This document shows positions 2,309 through 20,965 of a stretch of DNA of 64,000 bases, in pieces. The position numbers and the translations under genes are program-made. The stretch comes from Mumia flava (GTDB taxonomy: Bacteria; Actinomycetota; Actinomycetes; Propionibacteriales; Nocardioidaceae): NCBI RefSeq assembly GCF_002797495.1, contig NZ_PGEZ01000002.1, positions 1,054,001 to 1,118,000 of the forward strand, in the 5' to 3' direction. A model generated the notes under the pieces. That model did no database searches and had not been told where the DNA came from. It saw only the letters and a program-made list of their open reading frames with translations. The first letter of the stretch is position 1; every line of letters begins with the position of its first letter.

Positions 2309-3436
2309 TCAGGCCACAGCGGTCTCGCAGAGCCGTCGCAGCCGCGGCACCGGGATCCGGTAGTTCACGGCGGCCGCCGCACCCGGCCACTGCACGAGGC
2401 ACGCGTCGCCGGTGCCGTCGACGACAACCGGGTCGCCCGCGGCCGGCATCACGCCGGCCGCCTTCACCGAGAGGCCGAACTGCTCGGTCCAGAAGTACGG
2501 ACGGGCCCGGTACGGCACCGCGTCGTCGCCACGCAGCAAAGCCGCGGCGGCGACCCGAGCCTGCTCGATCGCGCTGGTCCACAGCGGGGTCCGACGAGGT
2601 CCGTCGGTCGACGGGAAGGCCGCGACGTCCCCCGCCGCGACGACGTCCTGGCGGACCCGTCCGCGGGAGTCGACCACGAGCCGACCACCGCCGAGCAGTC
2701 CGCTGGATCCGAGCCACGCGTCGTTCGGCACGTCTCCGACCGCGGTCACGACGAGGTCGGCCGGCGGCCGCGGAGCGTCGGCGGGCAGGATCCGCAGCCC
2801 CCGTGCGCGGGCCGCGTCGACGAGCAGGTCCGACAGCCACCGCCCGAGCTGGTCGAGCAGCGGCGGGCCCAGCGACATCAGCGTCGTGTCGCACCCGGCG
2901 TCCAGGCAACCCGACGCGATCTCCATCCCGAGCGGTCCCCCGCCGATCACGAGCACCGATGGCCGGGATGCGATCCGCTCCCGCAGCGCGAGTGCGTCGT
3001 CGAGGTTCCGCAGCGCGAGCGCGTCGTCGCGTCTGCCGGCGCCTGTGCCGGGCCCGGTTCCGGTCGCCGCTTCCGCCCCGAGGCGACGCGGTCGGCAGCC
3101 GCTCGCCACGACCAGCCCGTCGTACGGGAGCGTCTCGCCGTCGTCCAGCACGACCCGGCGCCGCCCGACGTCGAGCGCCGTCGCGCGGACGCCGAGCAGC
3201 TCGACCGCGCCGTGGTCCGACGGGGGCAGCGTGTGCGACGCGAGATCGTCGATGTCGCGCAGCAGCGCCTTGGACAGTGCCGGCCGGCTGTAGGCGGGGC
3301 GTGGCTCGTCGCCCACGATCGTCAGCTCGCCGTCGAAACCCTCGGCACGTAGCGTGTCCGCGGCCGTGAGTCCGGCGATGCCGTGGCCGACGACGACGAC
3401 CCTGCGCGGCCTGCTCACGACGGACCCGCTGGTCAT
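2309..3436 (-). CDS. NAD(P)H-dependent ferredoxin reductase (class I P450 redox partner)
   Basis: A 375-residue FAD enzyme of the putidaredoxin/rhodocoxin reductase type, passing electrons from NAD(P)H to a ferredoxin. The N-terminal FAD-binding motif is VVVGHGIAGLTAADTL, and PAYSRPALSKALL is the family-typical segment after it. A second GxGxxG-type motif (VIGGGPLGMEIASG) binds NAD(P)H, and an ATGDV-like motif is present as VVAAGDVAAF. The ATG at 3436 overlaps the stop of the ferredoxin gene by 4 bp (ATGA), so it is translationally coupled to ferredoxin and P450 in one unit. Confidence 0.93.
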   Translation of the reverse strand: MTSGSVVSRPRRVVVVGHGIAGLTAADTLRAEGFDGELTIVGDEPRPAYSRPALSKALLRDIDDLASHTLPPSDHGAVELLGVRATALDVGRRRVVLDDGETLPYDGLVVASGCRPRRLGAEAATGTGPGTGAGRRDDALALRNLDDALALRERIASRPSVLVIGGGPLGMEIASGCLDAGCDTTLMSLGPPLLDQLGRWLSDLLVDAARARGLRILPADAPRPPADLVVTAVGDVPNDAWLGSSGLLGGGRLVVDSRGRVRQDVVAAGDVAAFPSTDGPRRTPLWTSAIEQARVAAAALLRGDDAVPYRARPYFWTEQFGLSVKAAGVMPAAGDPVVVDGTGDACLVQWPGAAAAVNYRIPVPRLRRLCETAVA

Positions 3437-3621
3437 GACAGCCGCAGCGCGGCGACGGGGCAGACCCGCACGGCTGCGTTCGCGGCGGCGGTCTCGGAGT
3501 CGCCGAGCTCCTCGCGGTCGAGGACGAGCTCGCCGTCGTCGTCGAGATGCATCAGGGCGGGCGCAGCCTCCTCGCAGAGCCCGTGCCCCTCGCAGCGCGG
3601 TCGGTCCAGGACGATCCTCAT
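3433..3621 (-). CDS. Small ferredoxin, 3Fe-4S type, P450 partner
   Basis: A 62-residue ferredoxin. The cluster ligands are C10, C16 and C54 in the pattern CEGHGLC ... CP. The second cysteine of a 4Fe-4S motif is replaced by His (C-x2-H-x2-C), which is characteristic of the single 3Fe-4S ferredoxins encoded next to actinobacterial P450s. It shuttles electrons from the reductase (2309-3436) to the P450 (3618-4805). The genes on both sides overlap it by 4 bp, giving a P450-ferredoxin-reductase cassette. The gene is too short to be noticed by length alone but its motif is unambiguous. Confidence 0.93.
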   Translation of the reverse strand: MRIVLDRPRCEGHGLCEEAAPALMHLDDDGELVLDREELGDSETAAANAAVRVCPVAALRLS

Positions 3622-4805
3622 GCCGGCACCACCTCGAGGACGCGCAACTCCTCGATGCTGCGGGTGATGTTGCTCGGCACGCGAACGGCGTCGGCGACCT
3701 CGAGCCGCTCGACCCGCGCGGCCAGGGACGCGATCACGGCGTGCACCTCGAGCCGGGCCAGGCCCTGGCCTGCGCAGCCGTGCGGCCCGTACCCGAAGGA
3801 CAGGTGGTCGACCGGGTTGCGCTCGACCCGGAACGTGTCGGCGTCCTCGTAGTGCCGCGGGTCGCGGTTGCCGGCACCGAAGAGGATCGCCACCTGCGCT
3901 CCCGCCGGGACGACGGCGCCGTCGATCTCGACCTCCCGGGTGGTGCGCCGGCCCCACGCGTGCACGGGCGCCCAGAAGCGCAGCGCCTCGTTGAACGCGG
4001 CCGGCACGAGCGTCGGGTCCCGGCGTACGAGGGCCAGCTGGTCGGGGTGCGCGGCCATCAGCGCGACGACGTTGCCGAGCGCGGCGATCGTCGTATCGAC
4101 CCCGGCGCCGAGATACTGGTGGATGATGTGCCCGGCGGTGCCGGGAGGGATGTCGCCGCGCTCCTCGGCATCGAAGATCCCGCGCCCCACCGAGCCCGGC
4201 GCGAGCTCGTCGGCGGTCACCGTCGAGCACCACCCGTACAGCTCGCCGGCGATCGGGAAACTCTCGGCCGTGCGCTGGTTGAGCGGGCCGATCACCTGCA
4301 TCGCGGCCTGACCCCAGCGGAGCATGTTCGCGCGCACCTCGCCGGTGAAGCCGATCAGGTCGGCGACCACCTCGAGCGGGAGGGCACGGGCGAGGTCGTC
4401 GATCGCCTCGAACGACCCACGCTCGACCAGCGCGGCGACGAGCGTGTCGGCCTTCGCCTGGATCTGCGCCTTGAGACCGCGCAGCGCTCGTGGGGAGAGG
4501 TTCTCCGACAGCGTGGCCCGGAGCTGGGTGTGGACCGGCGGGTCCGAGGCGAGCGACGTCCCGGCGAGGGCCTCATTCACCATCGGGTTGAAGCCGATCG
4601 CACCGTCGGAGGAGAATGTCTCGGGGTCCGCGAGCGCCTTGCGGATCGGCTCGTACCGGGTCAGCGCGTGGACGTCGTTGGCGGGAAGGTGGACGACCGC
4701 GGCGCTCTCGCGCAGCGCACGGTACGTCGGGTACGGGTCGACGAGGACGTCGTCGCCGAAGAGATCGACGTCCGCCGTCACAGGCCGGAGGGGTGTGGAT
4801 GACAT
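3618..4805 (-). CDS. Cytochrome P450
   Basis: A 395-residue soluble bacterial P450. Seen directly: the I-helix oxygen-activation motif AGVDTTIAA, the K-helix ExxR in EALRFW, and the heme-ligand loop FGYGPHGCAGQGLAR with the proximal cysteine. It monooxygenates an unknown small substrate using the downstream ferredoxin and reductase, whose start overlaps its stop (ATGA). The ATG at 4805 has no obvious Shine-Dalgarno; a leaderless message or a GTG a few codons later are alternatives. A TetR gene lies directly upstream on the same strand, separated by 79 bp. Confidence 0.93.
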   Translation of the reverse strand: MSSTPLRPVTADVDLFGDDVLVDPYPTYRALRESAAVVHLPANDVHALTRYEPIRKALADPETFSSDGAIGFNPMVNEALAGTSLASDPPVHTQLRATLSENLSPRALRGLKAQIQAKADTLVAALVERGSFEAIDDLARALPLEVVADLIGFTGEVRANMLRWGQAAMQVIGPLNQRTAESFPIAGELYGWCSTVTADELAPGSVGRGIFDAEERGDIPPGTAGHIIHQYLGAGVDTTIAALGNVVALMAAHPDQLALVRRDPTLVPAAFNEALRFWAPVHAWGRRTTREVEIDGAVVPAGAQVAILFGAGNRDPRHYEDADTFRVERNPVDHLSFGYGPHGCAGQGLARLEVHAVIASLAARVERLEVADAVRVPSNITRSIEELRVLEVVPA

Positions 4806-4884: not shown

Positions 4885-5487
4885 TCAGCCGGCGTCGGTC
4901 AGCAGGTGGCACCAGGAGTCGGTGAGCTCCTCGAGGCAGATCTCGCGCGGCGTCGCCCAGCCGACCGCGAAGTAGCGCCGCGACAGGTACTCGAGCTGCC
5001 CGAACGCGAGCGTGCAGCGGATCTTGCGCACCGAGGCGTCGAACCGCCCGGCCTTGTCGAGCCCCGCGATCATGTCGCCGACCGCGCTCTCGAACCACTG
5101 CTCGGTCCGCTCGATCACGTCGGGCTCGTGCATCGCCTGGTACGACGCGGTGAGGTAGGGCTTGATCTCGTCCCACTGCGAGAACTTCCGGTCGAGCCAT
5201 GCGCGGATCAGCGCCCGCGAGCCCGACTCGACCACGACCGGCAGCGGCGGGTCGTCCGACGAGGTCAGGATCGTGTCGACCTTCTCGAGCAGCGCGCTCA
5301 TCAGCTCCGCCTTCGAGGCGAAGTGCAGGTAGAACGTCGTCCGCGTCGAGCCGGCCGCGCTCGCGATGTCGTCGACGGTCGTGGCGGCGTAGCCCTTCGT
5401 CCCGAAGAGCTCGAGCCCCTTCTCCAGGAAGAGCTCGTAGGTCATCCGCTTCTGGGCCGCGCGCAACGTAGACACGCACCGCAGCAT
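4885..5487 (-). CDS. TetR family transcriptional regulator
   Basis: A TetR-type repressor of about 200 residues. The helix-turn-helix is TTVDDIASAAGSTRTTFYLHF, preceded by the canonical LFLEKGLELFGTKGY helix; the C-terminal two thirds form the ligand domain. ATG at 5487 is preferred because it gives a usual TetR N-terminus; ATG at 5520 would add 11 residues and would start right next to the divergent -35 element. It lies between the P450 unit and the phosphotriesterase-like operon and is well placed to repress both. Confidence 0.9.
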   Translation of the reverse strand: MLRCVSTLRAAQKRMTYELFLEKGLELFGTKGYAATTVDDIASAAGSTRTTFYLHFASKAELMSALLEKVDTILTSSDDPPLPVVVESGSRALIRAWLDRKFSQWDEIKPYLTASYQAMHEPDVIERTEQWFESAVGDMIAGLDKAGRFDASVRKIRCTLAFGQLEYLSRRYFAVGWATPREICLEELTDSWCHLLTDAG

Positions 5488-5524
5488 AGCGGCTGACCAA
5501 CCAAACATCTTCGAGTTCATTGGC

Positions 5525-5554
5525 TTGACAGCGTGTAAAGTGACTGCTTACTTT
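5525..5554 (+). promoter_or_regulatory. Sigma-70-like promoter with overlapping inverted repeat
   Basis: A perfect TTGACA -35 hexamer at 5525-5530 is followed 17 bp later by TTACTT (5548-5553) as a weak -10. An inverted repeat aaagt ... acttt (5537-5541 and 5550-5554) lies across the spacer and -10, where a bound TetR protein would block polymerase. It would drive the plus-strand operon starting at 5617. Confidence 0.5.
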
Positions 5555-5616
5555 GATCAGGCAGCGCGTGACGCCGGTCACCCGCATCCGACCGCAAGCC
5601 CGTCTGGAAGGTCCTC

Positions 5617-6585
5617 ATGACGCACCTGGTCAGCACCGTCCTCGGCCCCGTCCCCGCCGACGACCTCGGCGTCGTCGCGGTGCACGAGGCCCTTCTCTCC
5701 GTCGTCCCCGGCGCCGAGCACGCGTACGACATCGCCTACGACCGCGCAGCGATCTTCGAGACGCTGGAGAAGAAGCTCACCGACTTCCGCAACGCCGGCG
5801 GCGGCACGATCGTCGACAGCACCGGGATGTTCGCCGGGCGCGACGTCCGTTTGTACGAGGCGTTGTCGCGCACCACGGGCGTGCACGTCGTCGCGTCGAC
5901 CGGGATGGGCCCCGAGGAGATGCTCGGCGGCTACTTCCTCACCCCGCAGACGAACCCGCCGACCCCCTGGCCGGCCGAACGGTTCGCCGGGCTGTTCGGC
6001 GACGAGGTCCGCGACGGCATGGTCGTCCCCCGCGTCGAGCGCCGTGGCGCGGCAGGCCTGATCGCGACCGCAGCCACCCGTACGGGCATGACCGCGACCG
6101 ACGAGAGCCTGTTCCGCGGGGCGGCGCGCGCCGCGTCCGCCACCGGTGTCGCGGTCTCGATCCGGTTCGGCGCTGACGCGGTGGACGACCTCGACGTCGT
6201 CCTCGGCGAGGGGCTGCCGGCCGACCGCGTCGTGGTCGGCGGTCTCGACCGTACGGACGCCGTCGCCGCCGGAGCCCCGCTCGCCGTCGCCCGGCGCGGC
6301 GCGTACGTCGCGCTCGACCACGTCGGCCTGAACGACGACCCCGGCCACGTCACCGACGCGGCCCGCGTCGACCTCGTGCGCGAGCTCCTGGCCGCCGGCT
6401 TCGGCGACCGGGTGCTGCTGTCGAGCAACGCGGTCGGGGTGGCGCTCGGACACAGGCCGTACGACCTGCCCTACGAGCATGTGCTGACCGCGTTCGCGCC
6501 GCTGCTGCGCAGCCACGGCGTCACGGACAACGACGTACGGCGGCTGCTGGTCGACAACCCCCGCGACCTGCTGACCCCGCGCTGA
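5617..6585 (+). CDS. Phosphotriesterase-family protein lacking metal ligands (probable pseudoenzyme)
   Basis: A 322-residue member of the phosphotriesterase/lactonase amidohydrolase fold, aligned end to end with its neighbour at 6646. The fold is kept (TVLGPVPADDLGVVAVHE, GGGTIVDSTG, LVDNPRDLLT). Of the metal ligands only H23 of the HxH pair remains. The second His is A25, the bridging Lys position is A150, the two later His positions are R183 and G209, and the catalytic Asp is N271. Binuclear metal catalysis therefore looks impossible. It could be a ligand-binding or regulatory partner of its intact paralog, or a decaying copy, though its reading frame is intact and it is first in the operon. 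Confidence 0.85.
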   Translation: MTHLVSTVLGPVPADDLGVVAVHEALLSVVPGAEHAYDIAYDRAAIFETLEKKLTDFRNAGGGTIVDSTGMFAGRDVRLYEALSRTTGVHVVASTGMGPEEMLGGYFLTPQTNPPTPWPAERFAGLFGDEVRDGMVVPRVERRGAAGLIATAATRTGMTATDESLFRGAARAASATGVAVSIRFGADAVDDLDVVLGEGLPADRVVVGGLDRTDAVAAGAPLAVARRGAYVALDHVGLNDDPGHVTDAARVDLVRELLAAGFGDRVLLSSNAVGVALGHRPYDLPYEHVLTAFAPLLRSHGVTDNDVRRLLVDNPRDLLTPR

Positions 6586-6632
6586 TCTGACCCCGCGCTG
6601 ATCTGACCCTGCGCTGACCCGACCTGCGCTGA
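6571..6632 (+). repeat. 16-bp tandem repeat across the stop codon of the first phosphotriesterase-like gene
   Basis: Three consecutive 16-bp units (ctgaccccgcgctgat at 6571-6586 and 6587-6602, then one with two changes at 6603-6618) and a partial fourth lie across the stop codon (6583-6585) and fill the spacer to the next gene. The array leaves about 13 bp for the ribosome binding site (agagagaagga) before ATG 6646. It likely arose by slippage and alters only the spacer length. Confidence 0.75.
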
Positions 6633-6645
6633 GAGAGAAGGACCC

Positions 6646-7599
6646 ATGTCGAAGGTGAACACCGTCCTGGGGACGATCCCCACGGCCGAGCTCGGCGTCG
6701 TCGCCGTCCACGAGCACGTCGGCTACGGCATGCCCGGCTCCGAGCTGGACACCCAGTGGTGGAAGACGCCCGAGGAGCGGTACGCGGAGACGGTCCCGAA
6801 GCTGCGGGCGTTCCACGAGCACGGCGGCGGCACGTTCGTCGACGCGACCGGCATCTGCAACGGCCGCGACGTCGACTACTACAAGTCGCTGTCGGCGAAG
6901 ACCGGCGTCCACATCGTCGCGTGCACCGGGTTCGTCGGCGGCGACACCGCGCTCCCCCACTTCGCCCGGGCGTCGGTCGACTACCTGACCCGTCAGTTCG
7001 CTCACGAGATCACCGTCGGCATCGGCGACACCGGCAGCAGGGCCGGCGTGATCAAGGTCGGCGTGAGCCGCGGCGGCCGGATGACCGAGCTGGACAAGAC
7101 GATCTACCGCGCCGGAGCGCGCGCCGCGGTCGCGACCGGGGTCCCGATCCTCACCCACCTCGCGATCGACCCCGAGCCGGCGGTCGCGATCTTCCGCGAG
7201 GAAGGCCTCCCCCTCGACCGGGTGCTGTTCGGCCACGCCGACGACGGCCTGAACGCCGACCAGACCCCGCACGACTGGATCGTCTCGCAGGGCGGACGGC
7301 TCGGGTTCGACACGTTCGGGTACGAGACCGAGCTCGAGGACCCGCCGTTCTGGGCGCGGGCGCGCAAGGAGCGGCTCGACCACTTCCTCGACCTGGTCGC
7401 GAAGGGCTACCTGCCGCGCCTGCTGGTCTCCGCCGACGCGAACTGCAGCCCGCTCGGCTGGCCCGGCGTCAAGGGCCACACCGTCAACTACCTGTTCGAG
7501 GACCTGGTCCCCGACCTGCGTGAGCGCGGGGTCGACGAGGCCACGATCACGACGCTGCTCGTCGACAACCCGGCCGACTTCCTGACCATCAAGGCCTGA
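6646..7599 (+). CDS. Phosphotriesterase-family metal-dependent hydrolase (lactonase-like)
   Basis: A 317-residue phosphotriesterase-like protein with the full set of metal ligands: H22 and H24 (VHEHV), the bridging Lys K137 (GVIKVG), H171 (ILTHLA), H197 (FGHADD) and D264 (SADAN). The family binds two metals inside a TIM barrel and hydrolyses lactones, esters or organophosphates; phosphotriesterase-like lactonases are the closest general description. Start ATG is preceded by agagagaagga. It follows a ligand-less paralog and precedes a flavin monooxygenase 15 bp downstream, so a ring-opened lactone formed after an oxygenase step is a plausible substrate class. Confidence 0.9.
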   Translation: MSKVNTVLGTIPTAELGVVAVHEHVGYGMPGSELDTQWWKTPEERYAETVPKLRAFHEHGGGTFVDATGICNGRDVDYYKSLSAKTGVHIVACTGFVGGDTALPHFARASVDYLTRQFAHEITVGIGDTGSRAGVIKVGVSRGGRMTELDKTIYRAGARAAVATGVPILTHLAIDPEPAVAIFREEGLPLDRVLFGHADDGLNADQTPHDWIVSQGGRLGFDTFGYETELEDPPFWARARKERLDHFLDLVAKGYLPRLLVSADANCSPLGWPGVKGHTVNYLFEDLVPDLRERGVDEATITTLLVDNPADFLTIKA

Positions 7600-7614: not shown

Positions 7615-8754
7615 ATGCATCACTCCGATCTCAAGAACCTCGACGTCGCGATCGTCGGGGCCGGGTACGGCGGCGCCGCCGCGGCGAAGGCCCTGAGCCT
7701 GCTCGGTGCGAACGTCGCCGTGTACGAGCAGGCGAGCGAGACCCGCGAGGTCGGCGCCGGCATCGGGCTGCGCCCGTCCACGATGGACCTCTTCCGCCGG
7801 TGGGGGATCTTCGACGCGATCGCCGCCGTGAGCTCGCCCAGCGACTACTTCGAGATCCTCACGCCGACCGGCGAGCCGATCATGAAGGACGCGTGGCCGG
7901 GGATGGACGACTACGGCGTCAAGACTCACACCCACCTGATCCACCGCGGCGACTTCATCGAGGCGCTGCTCGGCGTGCTCCCTGACGGCATGGTGCGTCT
8001 CGGCCACAAGCTCGAGACGATCGAGGACCACGGCGACAGCGCGACGCTGTCGTTCGCGAACGGCACCTCTGTCACGGCCGACCTCGTGATCGGCGCCGAC
8101 GGCATCCGCTCCGTCGTCCGCGAGCAGCTGTTCAGCCAGGCCGGTCCGGTGTTCTCCGGCGAGCACGCGTACCGCACGGTGCTCGACGCCGACGACGCGT
8201 ACGGCACGGTGATCGACGACAACCTGCGGATGTACATCGGCCGCGGAACCAAGGTCTACCTCCTGCCGCTGCGCCACCGCGGCCAGGTGTCGTTCGACGT
8301 CACCTCGCTGAATGCGGACCCGACCTGGTCCCCGCAGGTCACGAAGGACGACCTGCTGGCGACGCTCGAGGGGTTCGACGAGCGGCTCGTGAGCATGGCC
8401 CGCGACCTCGATCTCGCGACCTGCAACGTCCGTGCCGTCTACGACATCGACCCGTTCGAGCGCTGGCACACCGACGCGGTCGCGCTTCTCGGCGACTCGG
8501 CGCACTCGATGCTGCACCACCAGGGCCAGGGCGCGAACTCCGCGATCCTCGACGCCGGCGCGCTCGCGACCGCGCTGGTCGAGTCCGACTCGGTCGCGGC
8601 GGCGCTGACCGCGTACCAGGCCGTGCGCAAGCCCGTCACCGACGAGCTCCAGGCGATCTCGCGGCAGGGCTGGGAGGAGGACGCGCTCGACGACGTCTTC
8701 CCCGGCCAGAAGCCGGCCTCGCAGAAGGCGGCGACCCCGCAGACGGCTCGCTGA
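7615..8754 (+). CDS. FAD-dependent aromatic-type monooxygenase
   Basis: A 379-residue group A flavoprotein monooxygenase of the salicylate hydroxylase/UbiH type. The N-terminal dinucleotide-binding motif is VAIVGAGYGGAAAAKAL, the DG motif is VIGADGIRSVVR and the GD motif is LLGDSAHSMLHHQGQGAN. Single-component enzymes of this group take electrons directly from NAD(P)H and hydroxylate a ring or similar substrate. Its TGA overlaps the ATG of the next gene by one base (TGATG). It sits in a run of hydrolases, consistent with a catabolic pathway of hydroxylation followed by hydrolysis. Confidence 0.92.
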   Translation: MHHSDLKNLDVAIVGAGYGGAAAAKALSLLGANVAVYEQASETREVGAGIGLRPSTMDLFRRWGIFDAIAAVSSPSDYFEILTPTGEPIMKDAWPGMDDYGVKTHTHLIHRGDFIEALLGVLPDGMVRLGHKLETIEDHGDSATLSFANGTSVTADLVIGADGIRSVVREQLFSQAGPVFSGEHAYRTVLDADDAYGTVIDDNLRMYIGRGTKVYLLPLRHRGQVSFDVTSLNADPTWSPQVTKDDLLATLEGFDERLVSMARDLDLATCNVRAVYDIDPFERWHTDAVALLGDSAHSMLHHQGQGANSAILDAGALATALVESDSVAAALTAYQAVRKPVTDELQAISRQGWEEDALDDVFPGQKPASQKAATPQTAR

Positions 8755-9704
8755 TGGCGCTGCACCCCGAGATCGCGAAGGTCCTCGCGACCCTCCCCCC
8801 GCCCCCGCCCGGCCCGATCGACCCGGCCGTCCTGCGGGCCGCCGAAGAGGCCGAGGTACGCCCGGTCGAGGAGCGCCTCCCGCTGCACGCGGTCACGGAC
8901 ACGACCGCCGACACGGCGTACGGCCCGGTGCCGGTGCGGATCTACACGCCGACGCAAGCCCCCTCGTACGGGGTGCTGGTCTACGTCCACGGCGGCGCAT
9001 TCTTCCTCGGCAGCCTGGAGACGCACGACCACGTCGCGCGGTCCCTGGCGTCGGCGACCGGCCTGAAGGTCGTCTCCGTCGGCTATCGCCGGGCACCCGA
9101 GTCGGCGTTCCCGGCCGGGCTGCGCGACTGCTACGGCGTGGCCCGCTGGGTCACGGACCACTCCGAGAGGCTCCGCTGGGACGGCGAGACCCTCGCGCTG
9201 GTCGGCGACAGCTCCGGCGGGACGTACGTCGCGGCGGTGACCGCGCTCGCGTACGACGACGCGGCTGCCGGTCGCCCGAGCGCCCCGATCACGCACCAGG
9301 TGCTGTACTACCCGTCGCTGGACCTCGACTTCGACGTCACGCGGTACGCGTCGCTGCGCGAGAACGCGCAAGGGTACGGCCTGGAGACCGCGGGTCTGAA
9401 GCCGTTCAACGCCTTCTACCTCGACAGCGGCGCCGACCCGGACGACCCGCGGGTGTCGCCGATCAAGCGCGAGGATCTGACGGGACTCCCGCCGACGCTG
9501 GTCGTCACCGCGGAGCACGACCCGCTGCGCGACGAGGGCGAGCTGTACGGGCGGCGGCTCGCGGAGGCCGGCGTCGCCGCGACGGTGAGCCGGTACGACG
9601 GGGCGGGGCACGGGTTCGTGCAGCACTTCGGGTGGATCCCGGAGTACCACCGGGTGTTCGACGAGACCGCCGCGTTCCTGCGTGGCCCCGGGGTCGAGGC
9701 ATGA
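8754..9704 (+). CDS. Alpha/beta hydrolase, hormone-sensitive lipase family
   Basis: A 316-residue esterase/lipase. The oxyanion-hole motif HGGAFF and nucleophile elbow GDSSGG are those of the HSL (bacterial family IV) group; the acid and histidine are in EHDPLRDEG and GAGHGF. It would hydrolyse a short acyl ester. It overlaps the monooxygenase before it by 1 bp and the MBL-fold gene after it by 4 bp (ATGA), so the operon is tightly coupled. Confidence 0.93.
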   Translation: MALHPEIAKVLATLPPPPPGPIDPAVLRAAEEAEVRPVEERLPLHAVTDTTADTAYGPVPVRIYTPTQAPSYGVLVYVHGGAFFLGSLETHDHVARSLASATGLKVVSVGYRRAPESAFPAGLRDCYGVARWVTDHSERLRWDGETLALVGDSSGGTYVAAVTALAYDDAAAGRPSAPITHQVLYYPSLDLDFDVTRYASLRENAQGYGLETAGLKPFNAFYLDSGADPDDPRVSPIKREDLTGLPPTLVVTAEHDPLRDEGELYGRRLAEAGVAATVSRYDGAGHGFVQHFGWIPEYHRVFDETAAFLRGPGVEA

Positions 9705-10657
9705 CCGCGGCGGCCCGGAGCGCGGTCGAGATCCATCCGCTGGTCTCGCCGTGGGGCCGGTTCGGCCTCTACAGCTTCTTCATCGACGCGCCCGAGCCGG
9801 CGATCGTCGACGCCGGGATCGCGTCGTCGCCCACCGAGGGCATGGCGCCCGCGCTCGAGGCGATCGGACGTCGGATCGAGGACGTCCGCTGGATCCTGCT
9901 GACCCACGGCCACATCGACCACGTCGGCGGCGCGCACGCGCTGTGGGAGCTGACGGGCCGGCGGGCCGAAATCGTGATCGGAGCCGCCGACGCCCCGATG
10001 CTGCGGTCGCGGCAGGCGCACGTCGAGGAGTACGCGGCGGGCCGGGGGCGCTACCTCGGCGACCCCGATGGCGCGGCGTCGGTGGCGGCGGCGGCGCAGG
10101 CCGTGATCTCCGGCGAGCTGGAGCCGACGCGCCTCGTGACCGGCGGCGAGACACTGCCGCTCGGCGGCGACGTCACCGTCTCGGTCCATGCGATCGGCGG
10201 TCACACCCCCGGCTCGGTCGCCTACGTGGTCGACGGGCAGCAGTCCGTGTTCGTCGGCGACGCGGTCCAGGTCCACGGGGCCGCGAACGGCTTCCCTGGC
10301 TACGTGGACCCCGCCGCGTACCGCGCGAGCCTCACGTACCTGCGTGACGAGGTCCGTCCCCAGCACCTCTACCTCGGCCACCCGTACCGCCGTACCGACG
10401 CCACCCCGTACGGCGTCGAGCTCGATGCCGATCAGGCCCGGGCGGCGCTCGACGAGAGCCTCGCGATCGAGGCGCGGGTCCGTGTGGCCGCAGCCCGGTG
10501 CATCGCGGCCGGACTGCCGCACACCGACTCGCCCTACTCCCCCTTCGCCGCTGCCGCCGAACAGCTCGGCTACGCCGGCGACCCCACGCTCGAGCCGTCG
10601 CCGTTCTTCACGACGCTGCACGGCTACGTGACCGAGGAACAGGAGCTGCACCCATGA
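9701..10657 (+). CDS. MBL-fold metallo-hydrolase
   Basis: A 318-residue metallo-beta-lactamase-fold protein. The zinc-binding HxHxDH is H69-G-H71-I-D73-H74 (LTHGHIDHVGG); further ligands are likely in GGHTPGS, FVGDAV and the C-terminal LYLGHP. The family includes lactonases, thioesterases and glyoxalase II. Start is ATG 9701, chosen because it overlaps the stop of the preceding esterase (ATGA); the open frame extends further upstream but without family-like sequence. It is part of the same operon and may act on a lactone or thioester intermediate. Confidence 0.9.
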   Translation: MTAAARSAVEIHPLVSPWGRFGLYSFFIDAPEPAIVDAGIASSPTEGMAPALEAIGRRIEDVRWILLTHGHIDHVGGAHALWELTGRRAEIVIGAADAPMLRSRQAHVEEYAAGRGRYLGDPDGAASVAAAAQAVISGELEPTRLVTGGETLPLGGDVTVSVHAIGGHTPGSVAYVVDGQQSVFVGDAVQVHGAANGFPGYVDPAAYRASLTYLRDEVRPQHLYLGHPYRRTDATPYGVELDADQARAALDESLAIEARVRVAAARCIAAGLPHTDSPYSPFAAAAEQLGYAGDPTLEPSPFFTTLHGYVTEEQELHP

Positions 10658-12384
10658 CCGACGACCAGTTCATCACTGACCTCAAGATCATGGACGCCGG
10701 CGGGCAGAAGATCGCCGTGCGCAAGGACCTGCGGGTGCCGATGCGCGACGGCGTCACGCTCGCGACCGACGTCTACCACGGAGTCGAGGACAAGCCGCGT
10801 CCCGCGCTCGTCGCGCTCAGCCCGTACGGCAAGGAGCTGCAAGCGCTCGCGCTCACGACACCGCCGCAGCGTCGTCCGTCGCCGATGTGGGACGGGTGCA
10901 TCGAGGCCGGTGACATCGCGCGCGTCGTCGCCGAGGACTACGCCCACGTGATCGGCGACCTGCGCGGCTCGGGCGCGTCGGAGGGCGAGCACGTCGGCAA
11001 CTACAACGCCGGCGGCGTGCCGCTCGGCCAGGACGCGTACGACCTGATCGAGTGGGTCGCCGAGCAGCCGTGGTGCGACGGCAACGTCGGGATGATCGGC
11101 ATCTCGTACTTCGGCTCGATGCAGGTGCTCGCGGCCGCCGAGCGACCGCCGCACCTCAAGGCGATCTTCGTCTCCGGCGGCCACTTCGACTTCTACGAGA
11201 CGACCTACCACGGCGGCATCATGTGGTTCATGCCGCGCGCAGCACGGGAGGGCCGCGGCGGCGACTCGGGCTGGGCGTTCACCGACCGGATCACGTCGCG
11301 GATGCTGGAGACGTACTCCTCCGAGGAGATCGAGGCCCGCGTCACCGCACGGCTCGCCGACCCGGACGTCGCCGCCTGGCCCAACCTCGTGCACACCCTG
11401 CACTACCCGAAGAACCACGAAGCCTGGTTCGACATCGTCCTCAACGACCTCGACGGCGCGTGGTACGAGGAGCGCAACCCGGTCAACCTCGCGAAGAACA
11501 TCGAGGTCCCCGTCTACCTCCAGATCGACCAGGGGCGCGGGTGGACCGTCGACGGCCACATCGAGCTGTACGAGAACCTCCGCGGTCCGAAGCGGCTGGA
11601 GATCGGGTCGTACCCGCCGATGCAGTCGCGGCCGTGGGTCGAGGAGCACGACACGATGTTCCGTTGGTACGACTACTGGCTGAAGAGCATCGAGAACGGC
11701 GTGATGGACGAGCCGGCGGTCAGTGTGTTCGTCGAGGGCACGCGTGAGGTCGTCACCGCGCAGGCGTGGCCGCCCAAGGAGATCGACTACCGTCCGCTCT
11801 ACCTGCGACCGCGGCGCACGCTGTCTCCGGAGCCGGAGCGGATGGGCGCCGAGCACGCCGCGCCGGACGGCTTCTACCAGGCCCCGCTCACCGTGACGGA
11901 CCAGGTGGAGATCATCGACTGGCGGACCGCGCCCTTCGAGGAGCCGACCGAGCTGATCGGAACCGGCGCGGCTCACCTGTTCGTCGAGATCGACCAGCCG
12001 GACACGAACCTCATCATGCGGCTGTGGGACGAGGCTCCCGGCGGGGCGCGCCAGCTGCTCACGACCGGGTTCCTCAAGGCGTCGCACCGCGAGCTCGACG
12101 ACCGGACCACCGAGGGCAACCCGTACCACCCGCACACCCGCGCGGTCCCGGTCGAGCCGGGGACCATCGAGGAGTACGTGCTCCGGCTGTACCCGTTCGC
12201 GGCCACCCTGCGGTCGGGCCACCGCCTCGTCGCCGAGCTGTCGAACGACGAGCCGCTCGCCGATGCGCACAACGCGTTGCTGCCGCCCGACGCCTTCCAC
12301 CTACCGGTCGGCCGTCCGGTGACCCACAAGGTGTATCGCGACGCCGCTCACCACTCGCGGCTCGTGCTTCCGTTCACGCGCTGA
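10654..12384 (+). CDS. CocE/NonD family hydrolase (X-Pro dipeptidyl-peptidase fold)
   Basis: A 576-residue serine hydrolase of the cocaine esterase / X-Pro dipeptidyl-peptidase S15 family. The N-terminal RVPMRDGVTLATDVY segment, nucleophile motif GISYFG and oxyanion-type DLRGSGASEG are typical; a jelly-roll C-terminal domain follows. Members cleave esters or amides of bulky substrates. ATG 10654 overlaps the MBL gene stop by 4 bp. It is the last gene of the plus-strand operon that starts at 5617, which ends at a strong hairpin 20 bp downstream. Confidence 0.92.
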   Translation: MTDDQFITDLKIMDAGGQKIAVRKDLRVPMRDGVTLATDVYHGVEDKPRPALVALSPYGKELQALALTTPPQRRPSPMWDGCIEAGDIARVVAEDYAHVIGDLRGSGASEGEHVGNYNAGGVPLGQDAYDLIEWVAEQPWCDGNVGMIGISYFGSMQVLAAAERPPHLKAIFVSGGHFDFYETTYHGGIMWFMPRAAREGRGGDSGWAFTDRITSRMLETYSSEEIEARVTARLADPDVAAWPNLVHTLHYPKNHEAWFDIVLNDLDGAWYEERNPVNLAKNIEVPVYLQIDQGRGWTVDGHIELYENLRGPKRLEIGSYPPMQSRPWVEEHDTMFRWYDYWLKSIENGVMDEPAVSVFVEGTREVVTAQAWPPKEIDYRPLYLRPRRTLSPEPERMGAEHAAPDGFYQAPLTVTDQVEIIDWRTAPFEEPTELIGTGAAHLFVEIDQPDTNLIMRLWDEAPGGARQLLTTGFLKASHRELDDRTTEGNPYHPHTRAVPVEPGTIEEYVLRLYPFAATLRSGHRLVAELSNDEPLADAHNALLPPDAFHLPVGRPVTHKVYRDAAHHSRLVLPFTR

Positions 12385-12403
12385 AGCGAAGAGGGGGCGG
12401 ATC

Positions 12404-12447
12404 GAGATTCCTGGTACACCGTACGCGCACGGTGTACCAGGAATCTC
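12404..12447. terminator. Long perfect hairpin between convergent genes
   Basis: A 19-bp perfect stem (left arm gagattcctggtacaccgt) closes a 6-nt loop, acgcgc. It lies between the stop of the CocE-type gene (12384) and the stop of the opposing giant secreted protein (12470). There is no U-tract on either strand, so it resembles the U-less hairpins proposed as bidirectional terminators in high-GC actinomycetes. Confidence 0.75.
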
Positions 12448-12469
12448 GTGCAGGCACTCGTCCTTGCGG

Positions 12470-15400
12470 CTACCGCCGGCGCACCCGTACCTTCACCGTG
12501 CGCGTGGACGACGACAGCTGGTCGCTCCCGCGGTAGGTCACGGTGAAGCGCTGGCGCCCGGCCCTCGGGAGGCGACCCAACCGGACCTTCGCGACGCCGT
12601 GGCGAACTCGCGCCGTCGCGTCGACCCCGCGCCCGCGAACCGTGACGAGGCCGCGCGGACGGACGCCGTGGGCTCCGCGCACCCGCACGACGACCTTCAC
12701 CCGGGTCCGCTCGGCCACCACCTTCCGCGGCTTCACCTTCGCCGCCGTGATCCGGGAGCGTGCCTTCGTGATCCGCAGCCGGACCGTGTCCGACGACGCC
12801 CGGTGACGCTCGTCGCCGCGGTAGCGCACCGTGAGCGTGTGACGGCCAGGGGCGAGCGACCGGGCCGGCACACGGACGGTGGTGACGCCCCGCCTCGCCG
12901 ACGTCGAACCGAGCACCCGCGAGCCCTTCCGAACCTCGACCCGACCGGTCGGGTGCCCGGCAGGAGAGGTGACCCGCGCGGTCACGACCGCCGACCGCCC
13001 GTACGCGACCGCCCACGGCCGCACCTGCGCGGAGGTCGACGTCGTCGCCTTCTCCGGCGCCGGTCGCTCGTCCGGATCGAGCGACGCGACGTAGCGCGGC
13101 GTACCGGCCGACGTGCCGGCCACGAGCCGGTAGGCCTCGAGAGCGGAGCCCTGGGCCAGCGCGACCTCGAACGTCGCGTCGCCCGCGTCGTCCGCCGCCG
13201 CCTGACCGACGTACGCGACGTCGCCGGCACCCGGTGCGTCGGCATCAGCGTCGCCGTCGAGCACCAGCACTCCGACCTGCCCACCGGCCGCGGCGGCCCC
13301 GCCGTGCAGCGTCACCGTCGCGACCCCGTCGGCGAGCACGGCGTCGTGCGCCATCGCCGACCCGTCCTCGGCCTGCCCCACGACGCTCGGCGCCGGGTGC
13401 CGAAGCGCGTACGACACCGGCTCGACCGTGACCGCGCCGCGCTCGACGGCCGCCGAGGAACGCTGCGCCCGCCCGTCTGCCGGCTCGTCTGCTCGCCGCA
13501 GCACCGGCCGCTGCGCCTCGTCGTCCCAGCGCCACACGCTGTCGAGGTCCCAGCCGAGCCGGCCGGTCCACGTGTCGGCGCTCTGTGTCTCGGCTGTCGT
13601 GACCGTCTCCCCGTTCAGCGTGGTCGGGCCGGTCGCCGTGACCGACTGCGTCTGCGCGACCAGCGTCTCGATGGCGAGGTTGTTCGACAGGGTGGCGGTC
13701 TGCCCCGACGCGTAGCGGGCGACCACCCGGTGGGCCAGCGACGTCGCGGTGACCGACGGGTTCAGCGCGATGCTGTCGCGGACGACGGTCCCGCTGTCGC
13801 GTGCGTACCCGGTGAGCCCGCCGGCCGTCGTCCCCGACGCGGTGACCGCGCCCGTCGCGTACACCCGCTCGGTGGTGCTCGGGCTGTCCGCCACACCGAT
13901 GATCCCGCCGGCGTAGTTGCCGCCCGTCGTGCTCACCTCGGCGGTGGAGTACACGTCGCGGATCGTCCCGAACGAGTCGCCCGCGACGCCGCCGGCGTAC
14001 GAGAGGCTGCTCACCGAACCGCCGACCGAGACCCGCTCGACCGTGCCGCGCAGCGAGTCGACCAGGATGCCGGCCTTGCTGGCGGACTTCGTCACGGTGG
14101 CGTCGACGAGCTCGAGATCGTGCACCGACGCGCCCGCGTCGATCGTGCCGAACAGGCCACCGGACGTCGAGGTGAAGCCGCGCAGGACGTGCCCCGCACC
14201 GTCCAGCTCGCCGGTGAACGGCGCCGGGAACCCGAGCTGCGGCAGCGTGACGCCGTCGAGGTCGAGGTCCGACGTCAGCCGGAACGACTCGTCGGGCCAG
14301 GCGGCGACCTCCTCGAGATCGGCCGGCTTCGTGATCAGGTACGCACCGTCGTCGGCCTGCTCGAGCGCGGGCGCCTCCGGCTCCTCGGGGAGCGGCGGGA
14401 CGTCCTCGAAGGCGTTCTGCAGGACGGGGCGCTTCCCGTCCTCGTCCCACGCCCACACCGTGTCGAAGTCCCAGCCCCGGGCGACGAAGAACGCCTGCGT
14501 CCGCGCCTGCGCAGCCGCGACCACCGCACCCTTCGGGTTGTCGGCGGCAGGCTCGTCGGTCAGGCTCTCGCCGCTGATCGCGACGGCGTCGCTCACGTGG
14601 TTGTCGAGCAGGTCGGCGACCTGGCCGGCTCCGACCCGTCCCACGATCGCGTGCGCCCACGTCGGCGCGACGACCTGCGCGTTCAGGGCGACGACGTGGT
14701 GGACGACGGTCTCGTCGTAGCCGTAGCTGACGACGCCGCCGGCGTTGCGTCCGTCGGCCGTGACCGCTCCGGACGCGTACGCGTTCTCGGTGACGGACCC
14801 GCCGATCGCGATCCCGACGACGCCGCCGGAGTACAGACCGGTCGCCCGGACGTCCGCCGTCGAGTAGCTGTCGCGGACCACGCCGTAGTGGTCGCCGACG
14901 ATGCCGCCGACGCGACCGGCGCCGGTGATCGAGCCCTCGGTCCGGACCTGCTCGATCGTGCCGTGGTTGACGTCGGCCAGCAGACCGATCGTCGTCTTGG
15001 CGGACTCGACGTCGCCGCGGACGACGAGGTTGCGGATCGTCCCCTGGTTGTCGGCGAACAGGCCGACGCCCTGGTTCGACGGCGCCGTGAAGCCGCTGAT
15101 GGTGTGTCCGTCCCCGTCGAGGACGCCGCGGAACGAGACGAGGCGGTCGATCTGGTCCGTCGTCGTGCCGGACAGATCGAGATCGGTCGTGAGCCGGTAG
15201 TGCTTCGCCGGGTCGTTCGCGATCTTCGCGAGGTCGGCGGCGCTCGCGATCAGGTACGGGTCGTCGGCCGTCCCGTCACCGGCGATCCCCTCGCGAACCG
15301 TGATCGCCGGGCGGATCGGTTGTGCGCTCTCCAGCCCGTCCCACAGGTAGACCCTGAGGGTGTCGCTCGGCGCGACCGGCAGCGGCTCGTCGAAGGTCAC

Positions 15401-18289
15401 GAACTGCTCGACGCCCCGGTGGTCCAAGGTCGCGTCGACACTGCGCATCGCGCCCATCTGCCGGCCGCTGCTGTCGTACGTCGCGGCGACGACCGTGACG
15501 TCGTCGCGGCTGCCCGGGTAGCTGAGCAGGCCGACGCCGTCGAGCCGGCGGTCGACCACGTCGGTCGACGTCACCTTCCAGGTCCCCCTCGGCTTGCGCA
15601 CCGTGTAGGAGTCGACCTCGCGTCCGTCCACCGTGTACGTGGCGATCTTCAGGCCCTCGTCGGTGACCTCGAGGACGCCACCGACCTGGGTGTCCTCGTC
15701 GAAGACGACGTCGTCCCACCAGTGCACCGTGTTCTCGTAGAACTTCGGCCCGGCCGAGCCCATCGTCACGTACGTCGTCCCGAGCGCCTCCTCCTCGGGG
15801 GTCTGCGCGAGCCGGCCGTCGTAGATCGTGGACCGCTTGTACAGGTGGTCGTGACCACCGACGTAGAGGTCGACGCCGAGCCGGTCGAGCGCGGCGGTGA
15901 TCTTCGGACGGTCACCGGCCAGGTCGGCGTCGTCGCCGTGCTGGCCGCCGTAGTAGGAGTAGTGGCCGACGACGACGTTCCACGTGCGTGTCGACGAACG
16001 GATGTCGTCGGTCAGCCAGGCGAGCTGGGCATCCATGTCCTTCACGGAGTTGAGCACCGAGACGTGGACGTCGCCACGGTCGAACGAGTAGTTGCTCTCC
16101 CCGATCGCGCCGTTCTTCGGAAGGTCGTAGAGGTTCGAGAAGATCGCGGTCCGCTCGGTCGTGGTCGAGTCGTAGTCGAGGTCGCCGTACGTCTCGTGGT
16201 TGCCGGCGACGGGGGCGACCTGCACGTCGAGACCCTCGAAGACGTGCTCGAACACCTCGTCCCAGTACTGTCCGCGGCCGCCGTTGTCGACGAGGTCGCC
16301 GGTCTGCACCAGCGTCCGGCCGCCGGGCGCCTCGGTCTCGAGCCGGTCGAGCACGTCGCGGAGCATCCCCAGGTCGTCGGCGTCGTGGCTCGTGGCCTGG
16401 AGGTCACCGATCACGTAGATCGGCTCGTCGTCAGCGCCGCCGGCGACGAGCTCGCCCTCGACGTCGGTCCACGCCGCGTCGTCGTCCGGGTCCGGCGCCC
16501 CACCGTCGCGCGCCACCCCGAAGCGGTACTCGTAACGGCCGTCCGTGTCAAGCCCGGCGACATCGAACTCGTGGCTGCGCAGCGTCTGCCCGGTGATGGA
16601 GTGCTGGTAGGTCTCCTCGTCGTTGCCGATCGTGTTGACCTCGTACGGGCGGTCGTTCGTCGACGTGAGCACGTCGGCGTCGTCCCAGCCCTCCGTACCG
16701 GCCTCGCGGACCTGGGCGTAGACGGTCTCGATCGAACGGTCGGTGGACACCGCGATCCCCGCACCCCCGGGCTTCTCCGTGACCGCGGCGGTGCTGCCGA
16801 AGTACTGGAAGACCCCGGCCGGGTCGAGCGCGTCCTGGTCGACCGTGATCCGGAGCAGCTCTGCGTTGGTGCTGCCGGCGTCGTCGGTGGCCTTGACGAC
16901 CACGTAGTGCGGGTCGTAGCTGCGCACCCGGAACGCGCCGTCGGCGACGGGAACCTCGCCGGCGGCGTCGTACACCTCGTACGTCACGGTGGGGGTCGTG
17001 CCCGAGTCGTCGGTCGCGGTCGCCTCGGGCAGCGCGACCTCCTCGCCGTACACCGCGGTCTCGACGAAACCGTCCGGCACGGTGATCTCGGGCGCGTAGT
17101 TCGCGCCGCGCGTCGTCTCGCCGACCCAGACCGGCGCCGAGACCACCACGTCACCGTCGGCCTGCCCGGCCCGCACGAAGTAGTAGTCCCCGTCGGCGAC
17201 GTCGCGTTCGAGGCTCAGGGAGACCTCGTGGCCGGAGACGTCGTCGAACTGCTTCGCGACCGTGCCGCCGTTCGTGACGAGCTCGACCGAGGTGAACACG
17301 TCGTCGGCGTCTGCATCGGTCAGCCGGATGTCGAACGTGGTCGTGGTGGTGTCGGCCGGGAGCACCGAGCCCATCAGCACGTCACCGGCGCCGAACTCGA
17401 GCACGGTGTCGACGTCCTGCGTGCTGAACACGCTGCGGTCCTTCATCGCCCCGTAAAGACCGTCGAGGGAGTGGTCGCTCGCCCAGAGCCCGGTGATGGC
17501 GTCGTTGCCGGAGACCCAGGAGGCCGAGTGCTCGTCCCCGTTCCAGACCGGCCCGACGTGCCAGCCCGCATCCAGCGCCTTCTCGTACTGCGCGAGATGA
17601 CCGGCGGACTTGACCTCGATCAGCTCCATCCGGTCGTCGGTGACGGGGTCGAGCCCGGTGAAGCCGAAGAAGTTGCCCTTCGACGTCGTGCTCGGGTGGT
17701 TGAACTGCGCGATCGCGTCGGGGTCGAGCTTCAGCCGCGCGTAGAAGGTGGCGAGGTCGTACTTGAGGTCGCCGGTGCCGAAGCTGTTGGCGAACCCGTC
17801 GACGCTCCCCTTCTCGGTGGCGCGCGCCGTCGCCTTCCAGTCGGTGTTGAAGACGTTGATGTGACCGGTGCCGTCGTACCAGGTGTTCTCGATCGACGGC
17901 ACGGCGACGAGGTCGTCCTGCGAGGCGTTGTACGTCTCGACCTCCTCGTGGACCGCCCGCCACTCGCGCGAGTCGGCGTCACGCCAGTCGTCGACGAAGT
18001 CGTCGCCGTTGCGCAGGTCCCACATCACGTCGTGCTCGGAGACGGTGAAGAAGTCCGCGTCGGTCTCGTCGTGCACGTGCTCGAACGCGTCGGGCGGCAT
18101 CTCCACCCCGTCGCTGACCGACGTGTGCGCGTGGAACTCCCCCGTGTAGAAGGTCTTGCCGCGGTACGTCGGCCGGTCGTCCTCCTCCGCTGCGGCCGCG
18201 GGTGGCGCGGCCGCAGCGAGGAGTCCCGCGATCACCGCCCCCGAGAGTGCCCCTGCCCAGACCTTGCGATGACGCGACCGTACGCGCAC
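12470..18289 (-). CDS. Giant secreted PHP-domain / metallophosphoesterase / GLUG-repeat protein
   Basis: A 1,939-residue exported protein. A signal peptide (residues 1-34, basic start then an Ala-rich core) leads to a PHP-type hydrolase domain with H53-A-H55 and SEHD at 84-87 (about 45-300). Ig/FnIII-like segments run to about 615. A calcineurin-type metallophosphoesterase follows (about 620-900) with GDLVDNG 664-670, GNHE 696-699, GHYS 775-778 and GGHDH 811-815. Two blocks of GLUG-like repeats (about 1080-1630, GG-x2-G-x7-V-x-NSYSTADV style) and two Ig-like domains in a basic C-terminus complete it. Two different phosphoesterase-type catalytic domains in one secreted chain suggest scavenging of phosphate from extracellular esters; the GLUG and Ig parts probably bind cell wall or polymer. 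Confidence 0.88.
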   Translation of the reverse strand: MRVRSRHRKVWAGALSGAVIAGLLAAAAPPAAAAEEDDRPTYRGKTFYTGEFHAHTSVSDGVEMPPDAFEHVHDETDADFFTVSEHDVMWDLRNGDDFVDDWRDADSREWRAVHEEVETYNASQDDLVAVPSIENTWYDGTGHINVFNTDWKATARATEKGSVDGFANSFGTGDLKYDLATFYARLKLDPDAIAQFNHPSTTSKGNFFGFTGLDPVTDDRMELIEVKSAGHLAQYEKALDAGWHVGPVWNGDEHSASWVSGNDAITGLWASDHSLDGLYGAMKDRSVFSTQDVDTVLEFGAGDVLMGSVLPADTTTTTFDIRLTDADADDVFTSVELVTNGGTVAKQFDDVSGHEVSLSLERDVADGDYYFVRAGQADGDVVVSAPVWVGETTRGANYAPEITVPDGFVETAVYGEEVALPEATATDDSGTTPTVTYEVYDAAGEVPVADGAFRVRSYDPHYVVVKATDDAGSTNAELLRITVDQDALDPAGVFQYFGSTAAVTEKPGGAGIAVSTDRSIETVYAQVREAGTEGWDDADVLTSTNDRPYEVNTIGNDEETYQHSITGQTLRSHEFDVAGLDTDGRYEYRFGVARDGGAPDPDDDAAWTDVEGELVAGGADDEPIYVIGDLQATSHDADDLGMLRDVLDRLETEAPGGRTLVQTGDLVDNGGRGQYWDEVFEHVFEGLDVQVAPVAGNHETYGDLDYDSTTTERTAIFSNLYDLPKNGAIGESNYSFDRGDVHVSVLNSVKDMDAQLAWLTDDIRSSTRTWNVVVGHYSYYGGQHGDDADLAGDRPKITAALDRLGVDLYVGGHDHLYKRSTIYDGRLAQTPEEEALGTTYVTMGSAGPKFYENTVHWWDDVVFDEDTQVGGVLEVTDEGLKIATYTVDGREVDSYTVRKPRGTWKVTSTDVVDRRLDGVGLLSYPGSRDDVTVVAATYDSSGRQMGAMRSVDATLDHRGVEQFVTFDEPLPVAPSDTLRVYLWDGLESAQPIRPAITVREGIAGDGTADDPYLIASAADLAKIANDPAKHYRLTTDLDLSGTTTDQIDRLVSFRGVLDGDGHTISGFTAPSNQGVGLFADNQGTIRNLVVRGDVESAKTTIGLLADVNHGTIEQVRTEGSITGAGRVGGIVGDHYGVVRDSYSTADVRATGLYSGGVVGIAIGGSVTENAYASGAVTADGRNAGGVVSYGYDETVVHHVVALNAQVVAPTWAHAIVGRVGAGQVADLLDNHVSDAVAISGESLTDEPAADNPKGAVVAAAQARTQAFFVARGWDFDTVWAWDEDGKRPVLQNAFEDVPPLPEEPEAPALEQADDGAYLITKPADLEEVAAWPDESFRLTSDLDLDGVTLPQLGFPAPFTGELDGAGHVLRGFTSTSGGLFGTIDAGASVHDLELVDATVTKSASKAGILVDSLRGTVERVSVGGSVSSLSYAGGVAGDSFGTIRDVYSTAEVSTTGGNYAGGIIGVADSPSTTERVYATGAVTASGTTAGGLTGYARDSGTVVRDSIALNPSVTATSLAHRVVARYASGQTATLSNNLAIETLVAQTQSVTATGPTTLNGETVTTAETQSADTWTGRLGWDLDSVWRWDDEAQRPVLRRADEPADGRAQRSSAAVERGAVTVEPVSYALRHPAPSVVGQAEDGSAMAHDAVLADGVATVTLHGGAAAAGGQVGVLVLDGDADADAPGAGDVAYVGQAAADDAGDATFEVALAQGSALEAYRLVAGTSAGTPRYVASLDPDERPAPEKATTSTSAQVRPWAVAYGRSAVVTARVTSPAGHPTGRVEVRKGSRVLGSTSARRGVTTVRVPARSLAPGRHTLTVRYRGDERHRASSDTVRLRITKARSRITAAKVKPRKVVAERTRVKVVVRVRGAHGVRPRGLVTVRGRGVDATARVRHGVAKVRLGRLPRAGRQRFTVTYRGSDQLSSSTRTVKVRVRRR

Positions 18290-18354
18290 GTCCTACCTCC
18301 GTCGTCAGCGAAACTGCCTCGGCGAGTGCATCAGCGCCGACCGAACGCGGGGCG

Positions 18355-18370
18355 TTGGTCAGGTGACCAA
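18355..18370. promoter_or_regulatory. Palindromic operator candidate, divergent promoter region
   Basis: A 16-bp inverted repeat, TTGGTCAGGTGACCAA (7-bp arms, 2-bp centre), lies in the 141-bp gap between the divergent giant secreted protein and the aminotransferase. TGGTC/GACCA half-sites are typical of GntR-family operators. No GntR gene is seen in the window, so the regulator is unknown. Confidence 0.45.
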
Positions 18371-18430
18371 AAGGTGTCGTGCGGATGCACACAGCACACC
18401 TCACGGCCCTCGGCGACCTACGGTGGGTGT

Positions 18431-20131: not shown

Positions 20132-20164
20132 ATCAGCGCGGGCCACCGGGCGTAGGTTGAGGGC

Positions 20165-20956: not shown

Positions 20957-20965
20957 ACGCGCCGC

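Follow-up and report, generated by a model that had tools for sequence, protein, structure and literature searches.

The window analysed here, a stretch of 64,000 nucleotides from the genome of Mumia flava, contains two adjacent genes for proteins of the phosphotriesterase (PTE) family, and the first of them has kept a single metal ligand. Phosphotriesterase-like enzymes have been studied as homodimers and serve for the decontamination of organophosphates and for quorum quenching. The first gene, PTE1 (5617–6585, + strand), encodes 322 amino acids, and the second, PTE2 (6646–7599, + strand), encodes 317; both frames are intact, as the initial annotation had stated for PTE1. The PF02126 profile covers both proteins end to end (E values of 6.3e-35 for PTE1 and 4.7e-50 for PTE2; 121.5 and 171.1 bits at a cut-off of 22.4), which makes both of them members of the family. 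They align with each other over their entire length with 34% identity (E 1e-38), so the earlier description of a tandem phosphotriesterase-fold pair stands. PTE2 possesses all six metal ligands (H22, H24, K137, H171, H197 and D264), and the corresponding columns of PTE1 are occupied by H23, A25, A150, R183, G209 and N271, with H23 as the sole ligand retained; on re-alignment all residues previously listed for the two proteins proved correct.

Predicted models of PTE1 and PTE2 are both PTE barrels (mean pLDDT of 82 and 80, respectively), and the best fold matches of both are PTE/OpdA structures. With the Amidohydro_2 profile PTE1 scored 21.0 bits, below the cut-off of 26.4. The 4.4 Mb genome of the window contains only one other PTE-family match, in which the six ligands are complete. 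A 16-bp tandem repeat (3.9 copies, consensus CTGACCCTGCGCTGAT) was also noted at 6571–6632, extending from the final codons of PTE1 into the spacer that separates it from PTE2.

The pair is followed on the same strand by genes for an FAD monooxygenase (7615–8754), whose nearest solved relatives are 6-hydroxynicotinate 3-monooxygenase, decarboxylative vanillate 1-hydroxylase and tropone 2-monooxygenase, an alpha/beta hydrolase (8754–9704; Abhydrolase_3, LipP1-like though below the cut-off of that model), an MBL-fold hydrolase (9701–10657, ATG at 9701) and a CocE/NonD-type hydrolase (10654–12384, ATG at 10654). On the minus strand lie genes for a TetR regulator divergent from PTE1 (4885–5520), a cytochrome P450 with CYP199 enzymes as its best solved relatives (3618–4805), a small ferredoxin of 62 amino acids (3433–3621; Fer4_15), a ferredoxin reductase-like protein (2309–3436; Pyr_redox_2) and a LysR regulator (1105–2052), a relative of which is found near the P450 gene in some related loci. 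The solved relatives of the P450 and of the monooxygenase suggest a cluster for the catabolism of aromatic or heteroaromatic compounds. Judging by these relatives, the cluster looks like one for the breakdown of aromatic compounds. No description of it was found in the titles and abstract beginnings of the open-licence papers that our searches listed. The cluster adjoins a minus-strand gene (12470–18289) for a 1939-aa protein with calcineurin-like phosphoesterase and bacterial Ig-like domains, which shows no sign of membership.

Within the 96 bp between the divergent TetR and PTE1 genes we detected the palindrome AAAGTGACTGCTTACTTT (5537–5554), which occurs once in the window and in none of 100 shuffles; its exact core pattern was found in the window's own genome only (5 of 133 loci). 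It is a candidate operator, plausibly that of TetR. The clear promoter that had been placed before PTE1 was not borne out: a perfect TTGACA is present at 5525–5530, but the −10 element is weak, the palindrome lies about where it would fall, and a sigma-70 promoter scan of 5400–6700 found none.

To see whether the same pair exists elsewhere, as the initial annotation had proposed, genome contigs were scanned with PTE1 as a query, a search that reaches close relatives only. It returned 41 loci with 58–79% identity from Georgenia, Geodermatophilus, Actinomadura, Arthrobacter, Kocuria, Nocardia, Rhodococcus, Nocardiopsis, Nonomuraea, Citricoccus, Corynebacterium and other genera. Among 72,556 plasmids searched by tblastn, seven records gave a match, one of them at the ortholog level: plasmid p2 of the betaproteobacterium Caballeronia insecticola, whose cluster (8428–21095 of the retrieved locus) extends from the TetR and P450 genes through CocE and also includes transporters. 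PTE2 directly follows PTE1 on the same strand in all 41 loci and in Caballeronia (42/42). The two genes are separated by 60 bp in the window and by 3–57 bp (median 43, with starts chosen in the analysis) in the loci, and the annotated frames of Caballeronia overlap by 4 bp. The Caballeronia cluster is further accompanied by genes for a Phenol_MetA_deg protein, which hints at aromatic substrates, and an MFS transporter.

The reverse profile search with PTE2 gave the same picture. In the genus of one of the loci (L021), PTE2 was present in 30 of 150 sampled genomes, and PTE1 was located directly upstream of it in all 30, one of them being the genome of L021 itself. Co-occurrence of the prozyme type, that is with the paralog, is thus observed from both sides, the activity of PTE2 being deduced from its ligands. 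Other members of the cluster are less constant than the PTE1–PTE2 pair. The FAD monooxygenase and alpha/beta hydrolase genes are located downstream in 40 of 41 loci, the exception (L037) being a contig end; the MBL gene is found in 38 of 41, inverted in 10 of these 38, and the other three are short contigs; a P450 match lies within the retrieved flanks of 20 of 41. In phylum-wide samples PTE1 was present in 2 of 396 genomes and PTE2 in 2 of 392; both times these were the same two, the window's own genome among them. Among 57 relatives (5 of the same genus, 31 of the same family and 21 of the same order) no match at the level of PTE1 was found, the best reaching 80 bits against 584 for PTE1 itself. 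This patchy distribution of the cluster fits horizontal spread.

Ligand loss was analysed in 74 PTE1 sequences, comprising the window, the 41 loci of the contig scan, 31 further loci (L096–L126) and Caballeronia (L128). The set is made up of 42 whole frames, 31 tblastn segments and one annotated frame, with 73 distinct cores; in one of the loci (L125) PTE2 and the monooxygenase were matched in pieces and PTE1 in one piece. The residues at the six ligand columns form the strings HAARGN (27 sequences), HATRGN (22), HAARDN (14), HATRDN (3), HAARGS (2), HSVRGN (2), HSVRGS (1), HSVTGS (1), HAAREN (1) and SSVRGS (1). All 74 proteins are therefore missing five or more of the six ligands and keep at most H23, which is preserved in 73; in Caballeronia all six are gone, the H23 column being occupied by S, and none of the ligand-homologous columns is invariant throughout the 74 sequences. 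The string HHKHHD is found in 73 of 74 PTE2 proteins, the remaining one being a fragment. For comparison we used 33 other PTE-family proteins from the retrieved loci, with 26–36% identity to the better of the two queries (PTE2 in 32 of 33). Of these, 32 extend over the N-terminus, and every one of them has the HxH/H/H/D ligands; the 33rd, truncated there, keeps K/H/H/D. Thus, the ligand loss in PTE1 is unusual for the PTE family. In four of the 33 (L046, L057, L079 and L085) the column of the bridging lysine contains G or A, with the histidines and the aspartate kept; a residue elsewhere in the protein may take the place of the lysine, or the column may be misaligned.

Judged from its sequence, PTE1 is a pseudoenzyme in the sense that the catalytic motif is lost across all examined orthologs (74/74). 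An alternative metal site at the old ligand positions was considered and judged unlikely, because apart from H23 these positions are occupied by A, S, T, V, R, G or N, with D or E only at position 209 (18 of 74). The Caballeronia record, in which PTE1 is labelled 'phosphotriesterase', is a warning against inferring activity from a name.

The loss of ligands is not accompanied by signs of decay. None of the 74 PTE1 sequences contains an in-frame stop. The median NG86 dN/dS is 0.254 for PTE1 (42 sequences, 860 pairs with dS <1.5) and 0.209 for PTE2 (42 sequences, 861 pairs). The third positions are rich in G+C, which probably lowers dS, so that these values are likely too high. Among the 25 pairs with the smallest PTE2 dS, the dN/dS of PTE1 ranged from 0.11 to 0.44 and exceeded that of PTE2 in 21. 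It is well supported that PTE1 is under purifying selection and retained. The initial annotation had considered it probably retained and had named relaxed selection with frequent frameshifts as evidence to the contrary; the dN/dS values and the stop-free frames contradict the latter, and adjacency in both search directions and the invariant segments of PTE1 itself strengthen the former.

Conservation within PTE1 is unevenly distributed. A near-invariant segment, residues 95–120 (TGMGPEEMLGGYFLTPQTNPPTPWPA; 5899–5976, + strand), forms the loop after strand 3 with 97% mean column identity over residues 95–119 and is a candidate interface or capping loop. A second conserved segment, residues 134–147 (GMVVPRVERRGAAG; 6016–6057, + strand), has a mean column identity of 93%. 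For the loops after strands 1–8 the mean identity is 86, 98, 97, 78, 86, 94, 71 and 78% in PTE1 (73 distinct sequences) and 94, 98, 92, 99, 94, 87, 88 and 95% in PTE2 (68 distinct sequences). In loops 4, 7 and 8 PTE1 is thus more relaxed than PTE2, and it equals or exceeds PTE2 in loops 2, 3 and 6. When all loops of the catalytic face are averaged, PTE1 is less conserved than PTE2 (0.859 against 0.926); its opposite-face loops reach 0.872 and its helices 0.796. The loop borders are approximate, because the pLDDT of the PTE1 model is below 50 at residues 34–39, 70–74, 104–115 and 136–142, the last three of which fall inside all three conserved segments.

According to the structural literature, solved relatives in the PTE family and lactonases are homodimers with active sites near the subunit interface; residues 27, 72, 97, 98 and 263 of SsoPox line an inter-subunit groove that joins the two active sites, and position 34 of SisLac is a pivot of the interface (PMC3468530, PMC7084321). 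The ligands of SisLac are H22, H24, K137, H170, H199 and D256 (PMC3468530), a numbering close to that of PTE2 up to about residue 171, so that by rough register the groove residues would correspond to loops 1, 2, 3 and 8. We infer from this that the conserved loops 2 and 3 of PTE1 sit at the subunit interface. The conservation of these two loops agrees with such a role, whereas loops 1 (86%) and 8 (78%), which also belong to the groove by the residues given in these papers, are not specially conserved. Further observations speak against reading the pattern as an interface: loop 6 of PTE1 is conserved as well (94%), PTE2 itself is conserved in loops 2 (98%) and 3 (92%), and the PTE1 model has low pLDDT within each of the conserved segments.

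We favour, with guarded confidence, the explanation that PTE1 is a pseudoenzyme subunit of PTE2, an obligate and non-catalytic partner in a hetero-oligomer. PTE2 would be the paralog in which the binuclear metal site persists and which acts as a hydrolase on an intermediate of the catabolic pathway. PTE1 would have given up metal binding and turned into an obligate partner of its paralog; its near-invariant loops 2 and 3, placed against PTE2, would stabilise it and shape, cap or regulate its active site in the manner of a prozyme. The physical complex, the inactivity of PTE1 and its effect on PTE2 are what we infer here. Since the two genes stand side by side wherever either is found, the metal-less copy is most likely a working partner. 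A more specific version, in which loop 3 of PTE1 (TGMGPEEMLGGYFLTPQTNPPTPWPA) completes or gates the active site of PTE2 in trans within the obligate hetero-oligomer, is tentative and on present evidence rather doubtful; if true, the two subunits would share an active site, and the phosphotriesterase family would have a prozyme system. Among the roles suggested in the initial annotation, that of a partner is favoured by the constant pairing and the location of conservation, and those of a carrier or sensor rank lower.

Coevolution within the operon gave a mixed picture. Distances were compared for six operon genes in the 35 of 42 loci holding all six, plus the window. For PTE2, PTE1 was the only gene with a partial correlation of note (0.465; the next, with CocE, was 0.129), which speaks for a partnership, and PTE1 was correlated with LipP (0.472) as strongly as with PTE2. 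The top inter-protein column pair, position 37 of PTE1 with 117 of PTE2, had a z of 7.58 (P with V in 47 of 74 and an aromatic residue or H with Q or H in 25), and the LipP–CocE control reached 8.05. As this column covariation does not rise above control gene pairs, it was not counted as evidence. PTE1 and PTE2 form one clade each. A C20 mixture tree of 45 rows joined the two clades (SH-aLRT 96, with a long-branch warning), and in an LG+G4 tree of 61 rows, from which the 45 were obtained by leaving out 16, PTE2 was nearer to other PTEs than to PTE1. The two trees disagree on a possible origin of the pair by tandem duplication.

The main alternative is that PTE1 is a metal-free enzyme that uses new residues in the same barrel, similarly to LigI, and acts before or after PTE2. 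Catalysis by alternative residues had been listed in the initial annotation as a finding that would speak against its proposal, and it retains some probability even though no former ligand column is invariant. Tandem enzymes within single catabolic operons are common, and constant adjacency is equally expected of two enzymes acting in sequence. The polar residues D67, R75, D211, R212, D234 and S269 are invariant in all 74 PTE1 proteins, H23 and R183 are each present in 73, and the invariant ones are not obviously needed by a purely structural subunit. The high conservation of loops 2, 3 and 6, the purifying selection and the sub-threshold Amidohydro_2 match are also in line with catalysis. However, conservation on the catalytic face of PTE1 is lowest in loops 4, 7 and 8, the ones that contribute a large part of the active site of PTE2; H23 is replaced by S in Caballeronia and R183 by T in the Corynebacterium locus (L041); and D211 and D234 are invariant in PTE2 too (as D199 and D222) and are therefore possibly structural. 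We regard a metal-free enzyme as unlikely, though it deserves to be weighed.

Alternatively, PTE1 could be a ligand-binding carrier or sensor that forms no stable complex with PTE2, its former metal site having become a positive pocket (R183 and R212) for an acidic compound of the pathway. R212 is found in all 74 sequences at the column of the invariant D200 of PTE2, the aspartate after the strand-6 histidine, R183 stands in 73 of 74 at the column of a metal histidine, and the solved proteins closest to the flavin monooxygenase have names that refer to aromatic or heteroaromatic substrates. Such a role alone leaves unexplained why the pair is adjacent in all cases found while the MBL and P450 genes move, and why loop 3 is near-invariant; moreover, TetR, and in some loci LysR, are already available as sensors. 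We consider it distinctly improbable. The idea that PTE1 is no more than a decaying remnant travelling with the operon, as the loss of at least five of six ligands might suggest, is ruled out by its conservation in 41 loci and Caballeronia, its own invariant segments, the median dN/dS of 0.25 and the stop-free frames, and merits practically no credence.

A natural pair of one complete and one metal-less subunit, kept across many genera, offers a ready test of what the second subunit does, and the pair marks a catabolic cluster common to Actinomycetota and a betaproteobacterium.

Non-catalytic members of the amidohydrolase superfamily include collapsin response mediator proteins and inactive dihydroorotase subunits, which belong to the cyclic amidohydrolase branch and not to PF02126; like PTE1 they are barrels that have lost the metal site, and their role is structural or regulatory. 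LigI, a 2-pyrone-4,6-dicarboxylate lactonase of the same superfamily, is metal-independent. As a metal-free barrel hydrolase it is the precedent for catalysis by PTE1, the likeness being the sub-threshold Amidohydro_2 match; PTE1 differs from it in that its best listed matches, by both sequence and fold, are PTE-type enzymes. With PTE/OpdA, SsoPox and SisLac (PF02126) both proteins share the fold and the full-length profile, and PTE2 also the full ligand set. PTE1 differs from these enzymes by the loss of five to six of six ligands and by conserved segments of its own, and the solved relatives described are homodimers (PMC3468530, PMC4323659). Pairs of an active and an inactive paralog are known in other families, and in one of them an inactive homolog of S-adenosylmethionine decarboxylase, termed a prozyme, activates its active paralog by heterodimerization (PMC10211241). 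For the phosphotriesterase family our searches of open-licence papers found no pseudoenzyme or inactive-partner pair described. This prozyme belongs to an enzyme family other than that of PTE1 and PTE2; the two systems are alike in that an inactive paralog accompanies an active one, and by this analogy we propose that PTE1 may activate PTE2 through a shared interface.
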